Source: a virus. Taken from it: 22,728 nucleotides of DNA. Positions 7,607-21,674 of the stretch are shown here, piece after piece. The first letter of the stretch is position 1; the number at the start of each line of letters is the position of its first letter. The notes under the pieces were generated by a model. It was not told the DNA's origin, ran no database searches, and was given only the letters and a program-made list of their open reading frames with translations. Where the stretch lies: positions 1 to 22,728 of the IMG/VR virus record IMGVR_UViG_3300035698_005275; one strand, given 5' to 3'. The position numbers and the translations under genes were made by a program.

Positions 7607-8962
7607 ATGGTAAAATGCACTATGCAAGGAACACCTTTCGAACTTCACATAGGCATACCTAATAAAAGCAATCTCCCAACCGCATTCGTAAATTCTTTGA
7701 TCGAATTAATAAGGTATACGGAAAAACAATATCCAGAATGTAAGATAAGCTATCAGTTTCGTGAAGATGTGAGAACTGACCGTAATCGTAATCACATACT
7801 AAAAGCGTTTCTGGAAAGCGATGCTAAGTATTTGCTTTTCCTAGATGCAGACATGACGTATCCTAAAGATATGATCAAAAAGTACATTGAGGCGGACAAA
7901 GATATCATTGGTGGGATATATGTTAAACGAAGCCCCCCCCACACACCACTTGTATATATGCACACCAGCGCAGGCAAATTTGGTTATATAGATGTGTTTA
8001 GATTAGAACAAGGGGTACCTAATAAAGTTGATGGCATAGCTACTGGCGGGATGTTTATAAAAAAAGACGCTGTACTTAAAATGTTTAAGCAAGATATGCA
8101 TTGGTTCAAATACGGCGATGATTATCATTTGCCAGTTGCTGGTGGTAACCAAGTTAGTCATGATTTGATGTATTGCATTCAAGCTGAAAGGTGCGGAGTT
8201 GAAATATGGGTGCATGAAGATGTCAAAATGGGACACATTACAGAAAATGTCGTTACCTTGGCTGACTACGTTCCAGAACCTGCACATAGGCATCATGTAT
8301 CGATACTTATACCCTCATACGGCGCCGATGCTTATCTGAAGCTAGCAACTACACTTAATACTATCGTAGAGAACACTGCAGGGGCTGATTACACCGTTTT
8401 TGTGACAGTAGATGGGGACCCAGAGCTAGCCAAGAAGGTCAAGGCTGGTTTTGAGGGTAAAGATGATCGAATACAAGTGATTTATCAGAATGAGAACATA
8501 GGGTATGGGCAAACGATCAATAAACTTATACAAAATAATGAATCAAAATATTATATTTATTTAGCACAAGATGTGTTAGTAGGTTATAATTGGTTAACCA
8601 ATGCAATTTCTAAATATGAAGCAGCTTTTCCGGATGGCGATGGACTGCTAACTTTTAATGATGGAAAAAAGTATGACATGATTGCAAACCATGGAATGGT
8701 CACCAAAAAGTTTATTGACAAATACACAGGGGAAACGCTGTTCCATCCTGGGTACAAGCACTACAATGTAGATCTTGAACTATCTCACGTTGCGAACAGC
8801 AATGATAAATTAGCGTATGCGGATAATTCCGTTGTATTCCATGCGCAAGCAAAAAGAGGTTTTTCTGTTTCAGATAAATCTTTTGACAAGGCTCGTGAAG
8901 TTATAGATGAAGACCAGAAGCTCTTTCTTGAAAGAAAGGCTAATGGTTTTCCAAAACATTAA
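7607..8962 (+). CDS. Two-domain GT-A type glycosyltransferase
   Basis: The 451-residue protein has two nucleotide-sugar-transferase-like domains. Domain 1 (about 10-220) begins HIGIPNKSNLP, has a DxD metal/UDP-sugar motif in LLFLDADMTYP (D80, D82), then IIGGIYVKRSPPHTPLVY and an acidic/histidine-containing second half. Domain 2 (about 230-440) restarts with SILIPSYGADAY and has TVDGDPE, the family-2 segment NENIGYGQTINKLIQN (295-310) and AQDVLVGYNW in the place of the DxD strand. No membrane segment is seen, so it is likely cytoplasmic. It sits between head genes and would be expressed late, so modification of virion proteins, or of a glycan they carry, is a reasonable inference; host-surface modification is the alternative. 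ATG 7622 is an alternative start. A run of eight C's lies at 7933-7940. Confidence 0.82.
   Translation: MVKCTMQGTPFELHIGIPNKSNLPTAFVNSLIELIRYTEKQYPECKISYQFREDVRTDRNRNHILKAFLESDAKYLLFLDADMTYPKDMIKKYIEADKDIIGGIYVKRSPPHTPLVYMHTSAGKFGYIDVFRLEQGVPNKVDGIATGGMFIKKDAVLKMFKQDMHWFKYGDDYHLPVAGGNQVSHDLMYCIQAERCGVEIWVHEDVKMGHITENVVTLADYVPEPAHRHHVSILIPSYGADAYLKLATTLNTIVENTAGADYTVFVTVDGDPELAKKVKAGFEGKDDRIQVIYQNENIGYGQTINKLIQNNESKYYIYLAQDVLVGYNWLTNAISKYEAAFPDGDGLLTFNDGKKYDMIANHGMVTKKFIDKYTGETLFHPGYKHYNVDLELSHVANSNDKLAYADNSVVFHAQAKRGFSVSDKSFDKAREVIDEDQKLFLERKANGFPKH
7933..7940 (+). repeat. C8 homopolymer inside the glycosyltransferase gene
   Basis: AGC-CCC-CCC-CAC encodes Ser-Pro-Pro-His at residues 109-112, just after the first DxD motif. 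It is the longest C run I noticed in this AT-rich window. A one-base slip would truncate the protein after domain 1 has barely formed. Confidence 0.7.
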
Positions 8963-12261: not shown

Positions 12262-13158
12262 ATGATAACTTGGACAGGACTACAAACAACAGTAAAAAAT
12301 ATAGTAACAGAGACTGGCACAGATAAAGACTCTTTTATCCAAGCTAGAATTAATGAGGCGCATAAACACATATGTGATCTATATGATTGGCCTTGGTTAG
12401 AAAAAACTCTGACAAAAACAAGCACAGCTTCACAACAAGAAATAACATTACCTGTTGACTATTTAAGGCTTATCACTTACCGTGTAACAAATGGCACTAC
12501 AGACTATACGCCTCACTATGTTGCCAACGCAGAAGATTTTGACCGTATTAATTATGCAGGCTCTACAATTTCATCTAACATCCCTGAGTTTTTCACAATT
12601 CGAAACGGGGATATATTGAACTATCCTGCGATATCTAGTGCTGGCCTACCAATTACTATCGAATACCTAAGCAAGCCAGTAGATTTCGAGCAAGCAGACT
12701 ATACAATAGGTACAATCACAGCTGTTGCAAATAATATGACAACCGTGACGGGAGACAGCACTGCTTGGGATACTGGTAATAATGTGCTGGTCGGTTCATT
12801 CATCCAACTGCCTGACAACAACTGGTACGAAATAGCTACTATCGTGAGTGACACATCTCTAACAATTTCTAAACCTTATCAAGGAATAACAGTAGCAGCT
12901 GCTACAGAACCTTATACCATTGGTGATTTGCCAAAGGTACCAGAAGCATTTCAAGATGTTGTATGGCTCAGGGCCGTATCTAGATACTTCATGCTTAAAG
13001 GTGATGAAGCCAGGGCAAAAGAGTATTTGACTTGGTATGATGACGAATATGACAAGCTAAGAAGGCGTTACAGCACAAAGACAACCAAAAGTGTTTATAA
13101 CAGACCTGCTAAACATATGAATGCAAACTATGATCCGCGGGCTATTACAATAACTTAA
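12262..13158 (+). CDS. Head-tail adaptor (tail tubular A-like) protein
   Basis: The 298-residue protein has the pattern of adaptor proteins that attach the tail to the portal in short-tailed phages. An N-terminal helix-rich start with INEAHKHICDLYDWPWLEKT at about 29-48 is followed by ITLPVDYLRLITYRV and a beta-rich middle. The C-terminal helix bundle includes VPEAFQDVVWLRAVSRYFML and YLTWYDDEYDKLRRRYSTK. The W-P-W after a helix and the L-P-x-D-Y-x-R-L strand are hallmarks I associate with T7 gp11/P22 gp4-type adaptors. The residues about 150-215 (TITAVANNMTTVTGDSTAWD onward) look like an inserted small beta domain that makes it longer than T7 gp11. It is directly followed by the nozzle-like gene, the same order as T7 genes 11 and 12. 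Confidence 0.75.
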   Translation: MITWTGLQTTVKNIVTETGTDKDSFIQARINEAHKHICDLYDWPWLEKTLTKTSTASQQEITLPVDYLRLITYRVTNGTTDYTPHYVANAEDFDRINYAGSTISSNIPEFFTIRNGDILNYPAISSAGLPITIEYLSKPVDFEQADYTIGTITAVANNMTTVTGDSTAWDTGNNVLVGSFIQLPDNNWYEIATIVSDTSLTISKPYQGITVAAATEPYTIGDLPKVPEAFQDVVWLRAVSRYFMLKGDEARAKEYLTWYDDEYDKLRRRYSTKTTKSVYNRPAKHMNANYDPRAITIT

Positions 13159-16381: not shown

Positions 16382-16829
16382 AAAATATGAAACAAAAGTG
16401 CTAGATGACAGAGATCTAAATCTAATACCAGACTTTAATAAAAGTTTATCTGGATTCCCATATTTAGAGAGGACAGCAGGCGATATTGATATCAAGCAAT
16501 CGTTTCCAATACTAGAAGATGCAGATACCTTTGAAGTTACTATGATAGACGGGCCTCCTGTATTTATGGGGCCGCCTGATTATGTATTTGGGTCGTACAC
16601 ATACAGACATGGGCTGGGCAAAATACCAATCGTTATCGCCACATTGATAACACAAGATGATAGTAAGTCATATTTTCAGTTGCCCTATACAGGCAACGAA
16701 GGGGATGGCGCAACACTTGATATAACAGAATTAACAACCGAAAGCATTACTATTGGCATTTATTTTGGATACTTTTCAAATCCTGGATCTGTTAAAGGTA
16801 ATATATATTTCTTAAGACCGACTGAATAA
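16365..16829 (+). CDS. Tail appendage-like protein, paralogue 3 of 3
   Basis: The 154-residue protein overlaps paralogue 2 by 17 bases and ends in TAATG shared with the next gene. Its N-terminus (KYETKVLDDRDLNLIPDFNK, then GFPYLERTAGDID) bridges paralogues 1 and 2, matching KVL-x-D-xx-LN in the first and P-D-F-x-x-S in the second. The central motif is YTYRHGLGKIPIVIATLI. Compared with the others it has an insertion before this motif (GPPVFMGPPDYVFGS). The C-terminal strands end ITIGIYFGYF and IYFLRP. The same overall fold is expected; the function is unknown beyond a structural role by context. Confidence 0.6.
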   Translation: MELLPEKYETKVLDDRDLNLIPDFNKSLSGFPYLERTAGDIDIKQSFPILEDADTFEVTMIDGPPVFMGPPDYVFGSYTYRHGLGKIPIVIATLITQDDSKSYFQLPYTGNEGDGATLDITELTTESITIGIYFGYFSNPGSVKGNIYFLRPTE

Positions 16830-17788
16830 TGGCATCACAAGATATACTAAAACAACTTACTGCAACCCGTGAAAGGTTTGCAAAAGAGGATGTAGGCCTG
16901 CGTGATAGATTAGCTGAAGAAACTGGCCTGAATCAATACAGACAAAGTGCTAATCAAATACGTGGCACTATTGCAGACACTGAACGTGTACTAGAAAACA
17001 TCCCAACGTCAACAAACCAAAGAGCTAGACGGCTAGGCGGTCCAGTCACGTCTGCTGTTTTGAACAGACTGACAACAACCAACCAACAACCAGTAGCAGA
17101 CCAACTAAACAAATTCAGCCGCAACTTAAGCGTACAACAGGCAGGATTGCAAGACGCTAATACAGAAGTTAACCAACGTATAACTGATCGTGGCAATGAA
17201 TTCCAACGCACTTATGGTAGCTTGTATAATGAATACAAAGCGTCTGCAGATAAAGAACAAGCGGATAGACAATATGCATTACAACAGCAACAAATAAAGG
17301 CAGAAGCTGACAGAGCTGCATATGCAAATCTTCTACAACAACAGCTCATAGACGCACAAAATCGTGATAATAATGGAGGCACAGACCGTAGTATTTCATC
17401 AAATCCAGATAAAGATATTGCATTACGGAAAGATAGACCAACAGGCCGCACAAGTGGAATAGGCGGTGAAATAGAACGGGGGCTTGCTGGTGTTCCAGAA
17501 GGTGTAATTAGAGGGTTGGCAGGTAATAACGTTGCTAACGCTTTCACACAACAAGATATAATCGGCAATGTACTTGCTTCTGCAACAAATGGTGGACGTA
17601 CTGCATATGGAGCCAAGCTAGCAGGTAATGACTACGCTAATTATGTGCGTGATCAGACTTCACAATCACTGGTTAGACAATATGGTAATCAAGGCGCTAA
17701 CGCAATAGTACAATATCAAAGACAGACAGGACTTCCAGCTTATAGAGCTATTCAGGAACTAGTTAAACGCGGGGTAATTAAAACATAA
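16829..17788 (+). CDS. Coiled-coil internal virion (ejection)-like protein
   Basis: The 319-residue protein begins in a TAATG overlap with paralogue 3. Residues 1-160 are helical and charged (QLTATRERFAKEDVGLRDRL and a Gln-rich helix around EQADRQYALQQQQIKAEADR). A low-complexity Asp/Asn/Gly/Ser linker covers about 180-205. A Gly/Ala-containing region (GGEIERGLAGVPEGVIRGLA) is followed by a helical end (YRAIQELVKRGVIKT). It has no signal peptide and no enzymatic motif. It lies between tail genes and a long Gly/Ala-rich protein, where podoviruses encode the internal proteins released into the cell at infection. I infer that role. The family itself is not recognised. Confidence 0.5.
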   Translation: MASQDILKQLTATRERFAKEDVGLRDRLAEETGLNQYRQSANQIRGTIADTERVLENIPTSTNQRARRLGGPVTSAVLNRLTTTNQQPVADQLNKFSRNLSVQQAGLQDANTEVNQRITDRGNEFQRTYGSLYNEYKASADKEQADRQYALQQQQIKAEADRAAYANLLQQQLIDAQNRDNNGGTDRSISSNPDKDIALRKDRPTGRTSGIGGEIERGLAGVPEGVIRGLAGNNVANAFTQQDIIGNVLASATNGGRTAYGAKLAGNDYANYVRDQTSQSLVRQYGNQGANAIVQYQRQTGLPAYRAIQELVKRGVIKT

Positions 17789-19779
17789 TGGCAACAGTTG
17801 ATCTAAAAGCATTAGCTAAATTAAAACCAGAGATAATAGGTGATAGGCTAGATAAGGCTGTCAGCAATGTGCGCGGTTTTAATGATAATTTTGTGGTAGG
17901 GGACGCGGCCAATCAATATATACAAGAAAACCCTAATGCAGGTTACAATCTTATAGATATACCATCAGGACAAGTAACCAGCAGACAGAATGCAACCCAA
18001 GACTATGGCGCTTTAGGTAATTTAGCTTATGGTATTATTTCACCATTTACGAATCTAGGGCAAGTAGCAGGTGAGATAGGAAAGGACCCTAATCAAAGGG
18101 GTGCATCCGAGTCTTTACTATCTGAAGAAAATTTCAAACGATATAAAGCTGACCCCCTTGCATTCACAGGTCAGCAAGCTATTGGAGCTGCTTCTACATT
18201 CGTACCAGCAGGTGGTACTCTGCTTGGTGCTGTAGCTAAAGGAGCTGCCGCGGGTGCTGGTAGTGCATTCTCTGCTGCAGATCTTACTGATGAAAATCTA
18301 GACTTAGGTGGTGAGTTACTTAAGGGCGCTGCTCTTGGTGGTGGCCTTGGTGCTATCGCTAAAGGTGTTAGCTCACTTGCTTCTAAAGGAGCTGGTGCTG
18401 CAGATGATGTTGTCACTGGTGCCGCTAAGGGTAATGCTCTAACTAGAGCAGGTCGTGGTCTTAAGAAAAGCGCACTAGGCTTATCTGACGAAGTAAGTCC
18501 TACAGGATTCCAGAGAACTCAACAACTAGCAGATGACGCTATAAATATACTTGATTCTACAGGTGGTAAAGCAACTCCTGCTGGACTTAACAAATCATTC
18601 AGTAAATTAAATAACGAATTGGCTACTGTAGTAAAAGGAGCTGACACTAGGTTCAACCCAACTAGTATTATGGATGACACAATAGAACGGCTGTCATTAG
18701 AGGTTGACGATGTAGCTGCAGGCGCTGTTGGTAAGAATGTAGAAGTCCTTAGAAAGAAACTAGCCAACTTAGGAGATAGCCCAACCGCAGATCAAATAGT
18801 AAAACTAAAGAGCGAAGTACAAGGCCAAATGGGTAATATATACAAAAAGTTGTCTAGTGGTAACGCACCTTTATCGCCTTCTGAGCAAGCTACCCTTGCA
18901 TTTAGAAACTCTTTGGATGATGCTATTGCAGCCACACTACCAGAAGCGAAAGCCATCACATCACAGATGTCTGTCTTGCACCAGATTGCACCAGACATAT
19001 ACAAAAATTCACAGAAGGGCTTGAAGGTTGGTAGCCCATTATTAGGCACACAGTTAAATCTAAGCGGGCCAGTTCAAGGCCTTAAGAATGCAGTAGGTAA
19101 TGTAGCTGAGAGAATTGGACAAGGTGCAGTACCTGGCGGTGGTGCTGTTTCTAGGTTTGCTGATCTTGCTAATACTGCACAACAAAAGGCTATGTTATCG
19201 AGTACAATACCAGCTGCAGTACTTAGACAACCAGAAGGCACACCTGCGAACCCATTTGCACCAGAACCAATGATAGAAGATCCTATGCTTATGGAAGATG
19301 AGATACTTGCAGAAGATACAGGCGATACTGGCATGACTGTCCAAGAAGCTACACAATATTTCTTGAATCAAGGCATGAGCATAAAAGATGCTAAGGAGTA
19401 CGGTAAAGTTTATGGTACAGAACCTAAAAAAGAAAAGGAGTTGAGTGGTACAGAAAAAGAAAAAAACTCAAATTTGAACACTGGTCTAAGAGCATTGAAT
19501 AAAATAGAGTCTGTAATTGCAGAAGATCCAAGCTCGCTAAGCAATGCTTTCTTGCCTGGTATATTACAATCTTCTAGCACCCGCCAATTAAATACTTCTA
19601 TATCACAATTATCTGACGTGATTGGACGTATGCGATCTGGTGGAGCTATCAGCGAACAAGAAGAAGCCAGGTTTAGAGGGTTCTTGCCTTCTACTAATCC
19701 TTTAGCTCCAGATGATCCTGAAACAATAGCCTTCAAACTAAACGAAATCAAGCAATTGTTATCTGATGCGCTAGTTTAA
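17788..19779 (+). CDS. Large internal virion/DNA-ejection-like protein
   Basis: The 663-residue protein starts in a TAATG overlap. Two Gly/Ala-rich hydrophobic stretches (about 130-165 and 175-205, for example GAVAKGAAAGAGSAFSAA) look like membrane-inserting segments of the sort found in ejection proteins and tape measures. A helical middle follows (about 225-430). A Pro/Glu/Met-rich acidic segment (APEPMIEDPMLMEDEILAED) comes after residue 480. The C-terminal 110 residues form a distinct module ending around SGGAISEQEEARFRGFLP (617-634), followed by a helix. I recall similar SGxAISxxE ends in proteins from other phages. No lysozyme or transglycosylase motif is visible inside it. A role in forming the channel for DNA entry is inferred. 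A tape-measure role is less likely because no tail-tube genes are seen. Confidence 0.55.
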   Translation: MATVDLKALAKLKPEIIGDRLDKAVSNVRGFNDNFVVGDAANQYIQENPNAGYNLIDIPSGQVTSRQNATQDYGALGNLAYGIISPFTNLGQVAGEIGKDPNQRGASESLLSEENFKRYKADPLAFTGQQAIGAASTFVPAGGTLLGAVAKGAAAGAGSAFSAADLTDENLDLGGELLKGAALGGGLGAIAKGVSSLASKGAGAADDVVTGAAKGNALTRAGRGLKKSALGLSDEVSPTGFQRTQQLADDAINILDSTGGKATPAGLNKSFSKLNNELATVVKGADTRFNPTSIMDDTIERLSLEVDDVAAGAVGKNVEVLRKKLANLGDSPTADQIVKLKSEVQGQMGNIYKKLSSGNAPLSPSEQATLAFRNSLDDAIAATLPEAKAITSQMSVLHQIAPDIYKNSQKGLKVGSPLLGTQLNLSGPVQGLKNAVGNVAERIGQGAVPGGGAVSRFADLANTAQQKAMLSSTIPAAVLRQPEGTPANPFAPEPMIEDPMLMEDEILAEDTGDTGMTVQEATQYFLNQGMSIKDAKEYGKVYGTEPKKEKELSGTEKEKNSNLNTGLRALNKIESVIAEDPSSLSNAFLPGILQSSSTRQLNTSISQLSDVIGRMRSGGAISEQEEARFRGFLPSTNPLAPDDPETIAFKLNEIKQLLSDALV

Positions 19780-19806: not shown

Positions 19807-20817
19807 ATGAAAAACCCATTCAATAAACAGTATGGTGTATCAAGCAGCTTTGCAGCCCACTTGCGCCGCAACCCACCAAGTAATTTCCCAGGTACAGATT
19901 ATTTGACCCCTTATGGTTCGCCAATATACGCACCAGAAGACGGTTGGATGCAACAAGAGGCTAAAAACTCCTTTATAGGAGCGAACGTCGCTAGTTTGCA
20001 CAATAAAGTTAATAAGCGAAAATGGTTCTTTGTCCATCTAAAATCAATTGTATCTCCTGGCAGAAACGTCAGAGAAGGGCAGTTAATTGGATACGCAGGC
20101 AATACAGGTTATGTAATTCCAGCACCAACCCCATCTAACCCCTACGCTGGCACTCATACTCATGTTAGCTTGAAAGCAAGCATTAATGATAACGGTACAG
20201 GTGGGAAGTTAATCGATGTAGAGCCGGTGCTAAATTCTATAACCACAAATAACACACCAACACCAGCAAAAAATGAGGCCATAGACGCTATGAAAACACA
20301 AATATCCAAGCTAGAAGCCCGGCTAAAGCAAGAAAGGGAACAAGCTGCCAATGATCTACAATCAACCATCACAGAGAAAGAAAAAGAGTTGGTTGATAGC
20401 GCTGAACAATTAGCACAACTACAACACGAAATAGACGAACTAAAAAGCTATGGTAAGAATGAATTAAACATTAACTACGCCGACCTAGCAACTTCTATCG
20501 TAGAAGAAACTCAAATTGCAGATGGCTTACTAAATAAGTGGGCGACGTTTATTGATTCTAAAATACCAGAGAGCTGGACAGTGTTGCGTTCTTTATTGAA
20601 ATATGACATCTTTGTTATGATTGGTCTTGGAGCTGGTTACTTAGTAACTGACACTTTGATTCTGCAAACTTATGGTGTATCTACAGAAGTAGCCGCAGTG
20701 ATTGTAGCTGGCGCTGGTATTGTCTTCAAAATCTTTGTCACACAATACGATACGAACAAAGACGGTAGACTAACACTTGACGACACGCAAATATTGAAGG
20801 AGTATATAAGTGAGTAA
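19807..20817 (+). CDS. M23-like (LytM) / coiled-coil / two-helix membrane / EF-hand fusion protein
   Basis: The 336-residue protein has four parts. Residues 1-140 have the M23 metallopeptidase pattern: GTDYLTPYGSPIYAPEDGW (29-47), WFFVHLKSIVSPGRNVREGQ (73-92), IGYAGNTG (94-101) and the H-x-H in GTHTHVSL (117 and 119). These enzymes cut peptide cross-links in peptidoglycan. D31, H77, H117 and H119 are in place, but the usual zinc histidine four residues before D31 is F27; H18 or another residue may substitute, or the domain may only bind. Residues 160-215 form a coiled coil. Residues about 266-285 and 293-311 are hydrophobic membrane-span-like helices. Residues 315-326 fit an EF-hand loop (D315, N317, D319, G320, D326). 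It lies before a holin-like gene. A lysis or entry role is inferred. Confidence 0.72.
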   Translation: MKNPFNKQYGVSSSFAAHLRRNPPSNFPGTDYLTPYGSPIYAPEDGWMQQEAKNSFIGANVASLHNKVNKRKWFFVHLKSIVSPGRNVREGQLIGYAGNTGYVIPAPTPSNPYAGTHTHVSLKASINDNGTGGKLIDVEPVLNSITTNNTPTPAKNEAIDAMKTQISKLEARLKQEREQAANDLQSTITEKEKELVDSAEQLAQLQHEIDELKSYGKNELNINYADLATSIVEETQIADGLLNKWATFIDSKIPESWTVLRSLLKYDIFVMIGLGAGYLVTDTLILQTYGVSTEVAAVIVAGAGIVFKIFVTQYDTNKDGRLTLDDTQILKEYISE

Positions 20818-20878: not shown

Positions 20879-21172
20879 ATGAATTTAAATATTTTTTTAT
20901 ATATGGTAGTAGGGTTTTTACCCGGTGTAATAGTTGGATTTATATTCGGCTATAGTACTGATTTATACAAGACGTCCTTTAAAGATGTTAATGTATTTCT
21001 AAAACTAATTTTTTCTGTTGTCTTATTGATCCTATTAGTATTTCTCACTGTCGTAGAAATATTTGCACAAGATTATAGTATTCCTGTTATGTTGTGGCCT
21101 ATTCTTGGGGCACCTGTGGGATTACTGTTCGGAGAATATTTTAAGCATTCAAATGACAAAACTAAAAAATAA
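20879..21172 (+). CDS. Holin-like small membrane protein
   Basis: Read from ATG 20879 the protein has 97 residues; a TTG at 20858 in the same frame would add seven but has no ribosome-binding sequence. It has three probable membrane helices: about 5-24 (LYMVVGFLPGVIVGFIFG), 40-62 (LKLIFSVVLLILLVFLTVVE) and 70-88 (SIPVMLWPILGAPVGLLFGE). The tail is short and basic (KHSNDKTKK). Size, number of helices and basic end fit class I holins, which make the lesion that triggers lysis. It sits between the M23-like gene and a membrane-anchored beta-rich protein gene, a sensible lysis-cassette position. Holins have little sequence conservation, so the call rests on topology and context. Confidence 0.5.
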   Translation: MNLNIFLYMVVGFLPGVIVGFIFGYSTDLYKTSFKDVNVFLKLIFSVVLLILLVFLTVVEIFAQDYSIPVMLWPILGAPVGLLFGEYFKHSNDKTKK

Positions 21173-21674
21173 TTTATGGATGATTTCCGCCCTGTTGGTT
21201 GGTATGGGCATAGGTTCTTCTTTTGGTGTGATCGGAATGTTTGGACAAGATTACTACTATAATAATCACGATTTTTATAAAATAGAAACTATACTGGTGA
21301 ATGGTACAGATATCCGCCCATGTTCTAAAGTTGAAATCACTTTCTTGCGAGATAGTGAAGTAAATGATCCGCAAGCCGTATTCACAAGAGAGTTGACGTT
21401 TGTACAGGTGTTAGATGGTGCAGATATATATTATGAGGTCCGAACTACCACAACTACTAATGCTATTGATAAAGGCAGGCAGACAATTTCTGGATATGTA
21501 GAACTCCCTTGCAATGCGCAACCAGGAGTATATTTTTTTAAGTACACAGTAGGTTATAGTGTAAATGGTTACAAACGTTCTACGTCTGCTAGGAGTACTC
21601 AGTTTGAGGTTGGCGCAGCCAATCAAGTTGGTCCTGTAGATCCGTTTCCAGATCTAGTAGATCAGGAAGTCTAG
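21153..21674 (+). CDS. Membrane-anchored, exported beta-rich protein
   Basis: I choose ATG 21153, giving 173 residues, because it provides a classic basic-then-hydrophobic N-terminus (MTKLKNNLWMISALLVGMGI) and overlaps the holin-like gene by 20 bases. The open frame extends upstream to 21063, but that would lie fully inside the other gene. Residues 8-30 form a single membrane anchor or uncleaved signal. The remainder should be outside the inner membrane and is strand-rich, Ig-like in pattern (KVEITFLRDSE, FVQVLDGADIYYEVRT, ISGYVELPC, YFFKYTVGYSVNG). It has two cysteines, C57 and C120, that could form a disulfide. The family is not recognised. A spanin-like or superinfection-exclusion role is possible from position. 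Its 3' end overlaps the minus-strand HNH gene by 86 bases. Confidence 0.55.
   Translation: MTKLKNNLWMISALLVGMGIGSSFGVIGMFGQDYYYNNHDFYKIETILVNGTDIRPCSKVEITFLRDSEVNDPQAVFTRELTFVQVLDGADIYYEVRTTTTTNAIDKGRQTISGYVELPCNAQPGVYFFKYTVGYSVNGYKRSTSARSTQFEVGAANQVGPVDPFPDLVDQEV

Follow-up and report, generated by a model that had tools for sequence, protein, structure and literature searches.

Endolysins with membrane domains

The endolysins M4Lys of phage BSPM4 and ORF39 of phage Enc34 consist of an N-terminal enzyme and a C-terminal membrane domain, which has two helices in Enc34 (PMC8943055, PMC7143992). M4Lys lysed E. coli without a holin and without Sec, and its membrane domain was required (PMC7143992). 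In Enc34, a separate putative holin lies beside the endolysin with the two-helix domain (PMC8943055). A natural holin-endolysin fusion, WP_163247266.1, has been described for Clostridium sporogenes (PMC9527704). For Enc34 and M4Lys, the release to the wall of an endolysin that is anchored at its C-terminus and has no signal sequence is an open question.

Here we describe a 336-residue protein of similar layout, which is encoded in a 22,728 nt stretch of viral DNA (“the window”), possibly a genome fragment. The open reading frame starts with ATG and occupies exactly positions 19807-20817 of the plus strand. The following features were assigned:

19807..20817, plus strand: 336-residue protein, M23 peptidase, coiled coil, two-helix hydrophobic hairpin and EF-hand/dockerin-like loop
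19807..20241, plus strand: M23 peptidase domain, about residues 1-145 (Pfam, AlphaFold, Foldseek)
19858..19899, plus strand: first zinc motif in a spaced form, H18-(x)12-D31 (subfamily alignment)
20035..20163, plus strand: catalytic H77 and second zinc motif H117-x-H119 (aligned M23 domains)
20263..20454, plus strand: coiled coil, residues 153-216 (a single AlphaFold helix)
20578..20745, plus strand: hydrophobic hairpin, helices 258-288 and 293-313 (hydropathy, AlphaFold secondary structure)
20749..20784, plus strand: EF-hand/dockerin-type loop, D315-D326 (pattern, below the Pfam cut-offs; low model confidence)

We consider it fairly likely that this protein is a phage endolysin, which is anchored on the cytoplasmic membrane by its C-terminal hairpin. 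It resembles Enc34 ORF39 and M4Lys in layout, i.e. an N-terminal enzyme, a C-terminal membrane domain and no signal sequence, and the genes of these two also lie in a lysis cassette beside that of a separate putative holin, as is proposed for the window. It is not a member of the PHA02564 family, to which the lysozyme-like, all-helical enzyme domain of Enc34 and M4Lys belongs, but has an M23 domain. In addition, Enc34 and M4Lys as described have neither a coiled coil nor a calcium loop, and their hosts are Gram-negative enterobacteria. The C. sporogenes fusion likewise unites a membrane-active part and an enzyme on one chain, but its holin part is N-terminal, and it is of the TpeE type.

The initial annotation had noted that endolysins and holins are normally separate proteins. 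The published examples show that an enzyme and membrane helices on one chain have precedents, although such proteins are uncommon. The layout with the enzyme first and two helices last is already described, whereas the version with an M23 domain, a coiled coil and a calcium-type loop is new, and we found all of these parts together in no other protein. A noisy scan of the loci compared here for enzymes with two C-terminal membrane helices revealed no further clear case among the matches listed. The enzyme and the phage group are both unrelated to those of Enc34 and M4Lys, which suggests that the layout arose more than once, and this apparently independent case offers a second system for the question of how anchored endolysins are released.

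The M23 domain and its zinc site

The M23-like domain proposed in the initial annotation was clearly recovered. Pfam matched residues 28-102 to PF01551 (E-value 1.3e-10, 41.8 bits versus a cut-off of 28.7). AlphaFold, with an input alignment of 21 relatives, modelled residues 11-100 mostly at block pLDDT values of 90-96, and Foldseek matched the model to LytM (1.6e-8), lysostaphin (1.2e-7) and also Csd2. The sequence matches of the domain in the PDB were a zinc peptidase, ShyA, LytM and lysostaphin.

The canonical histidine of the Hx3D motif is absent, and its position, four residues ahead of D31, is occupied by F27. In an alignment of 23 M23 domains, all 21 members of the subfamily (including the 336-residue protein) have a histidine equivalent to H18, and none has one at position 27, which is Glu, Asn or Phe. 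The remaining two domains have a histidine at position 27 and no equivalent of H18. Because histidines at the two positions are mutually exclusive, the alignment suggests that H18 took over zinc binding and replaces the canonical histidine as a ligand. H77 and H117-x-H119 are invariant in all 23 domains, and the set of zinc and catalytic residues, H18/D31/H119 plus H77/H117, is complete in the spaced form.

The motif spacing is known to vary among M23 enzymes; LasA, for instance, has H(x)12D, and gp13 of phage phi29 has H(x)7D (review, PMC9662197). The spacing between H18 and D31 is H(x)12D, as in LasA. Since the conserved H18 results in this LasA-type spacing, the site is probably active as a zinc peptidase. 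A dead enzyme, as the missing Hx3D histidine might imply, was rejected in view of the alignment and the spacing precedents of LasA and gp13.

The nearest relatives of the domain are annotated lysin A or endolysin proteins of Microbacterium phages, as well as proteins of uncultured phages. Two of the Microbacterium phage lysin genes are directly followed by genes for membrane proteins. The M23 lysin A proteins of the Eekayvirinae, a group of Microbacterium phages that includes e.g. Mazun and Pabst, share the spaced H...PGTD motif with the 336-residue protein, but they have a different C-terminal half and no membrane helix in a hydropathy scan. Two proteins of uncultured phages from IMG/VR, L111 and L113, belong to the same M23 subfamily and have a C-terminal membrane helix; they differ in having one helix instead of two, another middle region and no calcium loop.

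The spaced form H(x)10-13D, and not Hx3D, was observed in the whole group of phage M23 lysins (L087-L113 and the Eekayvirinae lysins), and the spacing is longer still in the Birdfeeder lysin, as read by eye. As H(x)12D is conserved across the phage lysin group, automatic checks for Hx3D may wrongly classify such enzymes as inactive.

Gene order and related lysis cassettes

The following neighbouring genes were considered:

16829..19779, plus strand: two ejection-like virion proteins of 319 and 663 residues, just upstream of 19807
20879..21172, plus strand: 97-residue candidate for a separate holin, three predicted membrane helices
21153..21674, plus strand: 173-residue protein with an N-terminal membrane helix and a beta-sandwich ectodomain

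We compared the gene order with that of phages that share the terminase, portal, major capsid and tail genes and that were reached via the terminase, and the ejection-like genes served as the anchor. The product of 16829-17788 matches a protein of phage G009 (E-value 5e-5), which has orthologs in G011, G004, G006 and MW202566; the 663-residue gene was called ejection-like from its position and composition only.

A cassette recurs after the ejection-like genes. Its genes encode a coiled-coil protein with one helix, a hydrolase of the wall, often with a terminal coiled coil, and a small hydrophobic protein of the hairpin type. In G011, an M23 enzyme with a coiled coil is followed by a hydrophobic hairpin of 68 residues, and in G009 and G004, CHAP enzymes with a coiled coil are followed by small proteins of 72 and 80 residues, respectively. 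G015 has an amidase with a coiled coil, a coiled-coil gene and then a protein of 67 residues; in G031, an amidase is followed by a protein of 93 residues, and the hydrolase of G006 is also an amidase. MW202566 encodes a CHAP-type enzyme here but no hairpin protein; the amidase gene of the TM7 phage, overlapped by a gene for 61 residues, is located elsewhere in the genome. In the window, the fused 336-residue protein occupies the corresponding place. The enzymes of G011, G009 and G004 are similar to it in position and in the order of an M23 or CHAP domain and a coiled coil; however, their hairpin protein has its own gene, and the M23 domain of G011 is of the ordinary type.

Lysis cassettes typically show such an exchange of enzyme types at one place beside small membrane proteins, and this is our main argument that the 336-residue protein is an endolysin. 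It also bears on a different function, i.e. that the protein travels in the virion with the ejection proteins, degrades peptidoglycan as the DNA enters and inserts its hairpin into the membrane. The genes directly upstream encode virion proteins and not lysis genes, and the 336-residue gene directly follows the two ejection-like genes. Moreover, M23 domains are known from tape-measure and ejection proteins: a similar one is part of the tape-measure protein of Streptomyces phage Karp, Foldseek matched the model to the M23 domain of the cyanophage A4 pre-ejectosome (9k2v, E-value 3.8e-5), and phi29 gp13 also contains an M23 domain (PMC9662197). However, the corresponding stretch of the related phages, with CHAP, amidase or M23 enzymes beside small membrane proteins, has the pattern of a lysis cassette, and no other endolysin candidate was seen among those open reading frames of the 22.7 kb window, a part of the set, that were searched against domain libraries. 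The genome context favours lysis over entry, and we regard a virion-associated entry enzyme as rather improbable.

Coiled coil and predicted membrane hairpin

After the M23 domain, AlphaFold predicted helices at residues 153-216, 224-252, 258-288 and 293-313, and a short one at 324-335 that follows the loop. The spacer coiled coil of the initial annotation corresponds to the first of these, a single helix of 64 residues with block pLDDT values of 84-94 and a length of about 95 angstrom, if it is helical throughout. The two membrane helices also described there coincide with hydropathy peaks of 1.91 and about 2.02 and with the helices 258-288 and 293-313. In contrast to the confident M23 fold, the hairpin was modelled with modest to low confidence (blocks of about 45-74 pLDDT, <50 at 267-275), and the confidence for the loop was low, because the C-terminal half has no homologues. 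Only three proteins of the window passed the hydropathy threshold, namely the 336-residue protein and the products of the next two genes. The hairpin has a short uncharged loop; positive residues flank both sides, and acidic residues are more numerous after the second helix.

For the whole protein, no close relatives were found among the viral contigs searched, and a phage search with the C-terminal half yielded zero matches at E-values up to 10. The sole match in species genomes comprised 20 residues of the calcium loop in an Anaerofilum MAG and was taken as convergence. No similarity of the hairpin to known holins was found. The proposed function of the C-terminal half is derived entirely from its composition and position.

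The 336-residue protein has no recognisable signal sequence and no N-terminal hydrophobic stretch of the SAR endolysin type. An anchored endolysin would, as it has no signal sequence, be made in the cytoplasm, and its hairpin would attach it to the cytoplasmic side of the membrane, presumably with the loop outside and both ends inside. Lysis would start with a collapse of the membrane, caused by the hairpins, by the neighbouring three-helix protein as a holin, or by both. This collapse would give the M23 head access to the wall; still tethered, the head would cut the peptide cross-links of the peptidoglycan, with its reach set by the coiled coil of ~95 angstrom. The role of the calcium-type loop would be limited, at most, to stabilisation or oligomerisation of the tail. 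With both ends of the hairpin inside, the enzyme would be separated from the wall by the membrane, which leaves its release unexplained, as in Enc34. For the 336-residue protein, the computations show the M23 fold, the full set of zinc and catalytic residues in spaced form, the coiled coil, the two hydrophobic helices and the position of the gene, and we infer enzyme activity, membrane topology, the release mechanism and the identity of the holin. Read from the sequence, the membrane-tethered wall hydrolase of the initial annotation, with peptidase, spacer and hairpin in one chain, is supported by the location of the gene at the place of lysis genes in related phages.

The same gene order could also mean that an ancestral endolysin gene and a small hairpin gene were fused, so that oligomers of the hairpin permeabilise the membrane and the enzyme on the same chain then cuts the wall. 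A small hydrophobic gene of the hairpin type comes directly after an endolysin gene in G009, G011, G004, G031 and the TM7 phage, whereas in the window the hairpin is within the enzyme, and the C. sporogenes protein shows that holin-endolysin fusions occur naturally (PMC9527704). Yet the hairpin has no detectable sequence similarity to the separate hairpin proteins of the related phages, for which nothing significant was found (hhalign probability 0.4%), and the argument for a fusion is thus one of position only. Furthermore, the gene that follows at 20879-21172 encodes the three-helix protein, which is weakly similar (E-value 0.003) to the 93-residue membrane protein beside the amidase of G031, and a separate holin is probably present in the window. 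A bifunctional endolysin-holin is accordingly viewed as unlikely. As the hairpin is not detectably related to the separate hairpins and the next gene encodes a three-helix protein, an anchored endolysin with a separate holin is the safer interpretation.

The gene at 21153-21674 overlaps the three-helix gene before it. For the ectodomain of its product, a model from the single sequence (pLDDT 63) shows a generic beta sandwich.

The calcium-type loop

The terminal loop described as an EF-hand in the initial annotation is present at D315-TNKDGRLTLD-D326, but it is weak as a domain. The strict 12-residue pattern occurs in 0.03% of composition-preserving shuffles of the protein, and all four expected acidic/Asn positions are filled. 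With the C-terminal segment alone, the E-values were 0.005 for Dockerin_1 and about 0.07 for EF-hand, both below the cut-off. The PROSITE pattern PS00018 did not match; the 12-residue core fits and the last position is Thr. Functional EF-hands and dockerins normally have two loops. Here there is one loop, without the pairing found in EF-hands and type I dockerins, and the pLDDT is <50 at residues 310-324. As judged from the sequence, it is possible that the loop binds Ca2+.

An EF-type loop, DIDRDGVVEPSE, is also found within the amidase of the related phage G031 (C1:6212-6796, minus strand).

Calcium gating, i.e. that Ca2+ entering upon membrane damage binds to the loop and triggers the enzyme, is conjecture. 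The four filled positions, the rarity of the strict pattern in shuffles and the loop DIDRDGVVEPSE in the amidase of G031 are compatible with it. However, the loop is single, below the Pfam cut-offs, modelled with low confidence and far in sequence from the active site, and this part of the initial annotation is not supported; a calcium-gated lysis enzyme appears extremely unlikely. A complete lysis machine on one chain, which would combine the enzyme, a measured stalk, a pore-forming holin hairpin and a Ca2+-responsive tail and would have arisen by fusion of endolysin and holin genes, is very unlikely.

Relationships of the phage and gene leaders

The window also encodes a terminase, a major capsid protein and tail-type proteins. 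A portal-size gene for 698 residues matches the gene annotated as portal protein in MW202566 and in related phages, and the product of 12262-13158 is of the podovirus tail adaptor type. For the genes 13160 and 17788, no relatives were found among the viral contigs searched. The best annotated relatives of the capsid protein are those of the TM7 phage DolZOral124_53_65 and of MW202566, with which the genes 12262 and 13160 are also in common. The capsid relatives point towards phages of the Saccharibacteria type, but the Shine-Dalgarno leaders of the TM7 phage are largely missing from the window and from its nearest relative L002.

Gene leaders were compared for the gene starts in window positions 1-21674 and for L002, L078 and G011. 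A four-base Shine-Dalgarno match precedes three of the 22 window genes, and the leader is T-rich in ten of the 22, e.g. TATTTTTTAATC. Shine-Dalgarno leaders were observed for 15 of 21 genes of the TM7 phage and for 8 of 12 genes of G011; L002, the nearest relative, has none in eight genes read by eye. The window also encodes a glycosyltransferase-like protein of 451 residues between the capsid and the tail genes (7607-8962) and a methyltransferase-like protein directly upstream of the terminase (491-1072).
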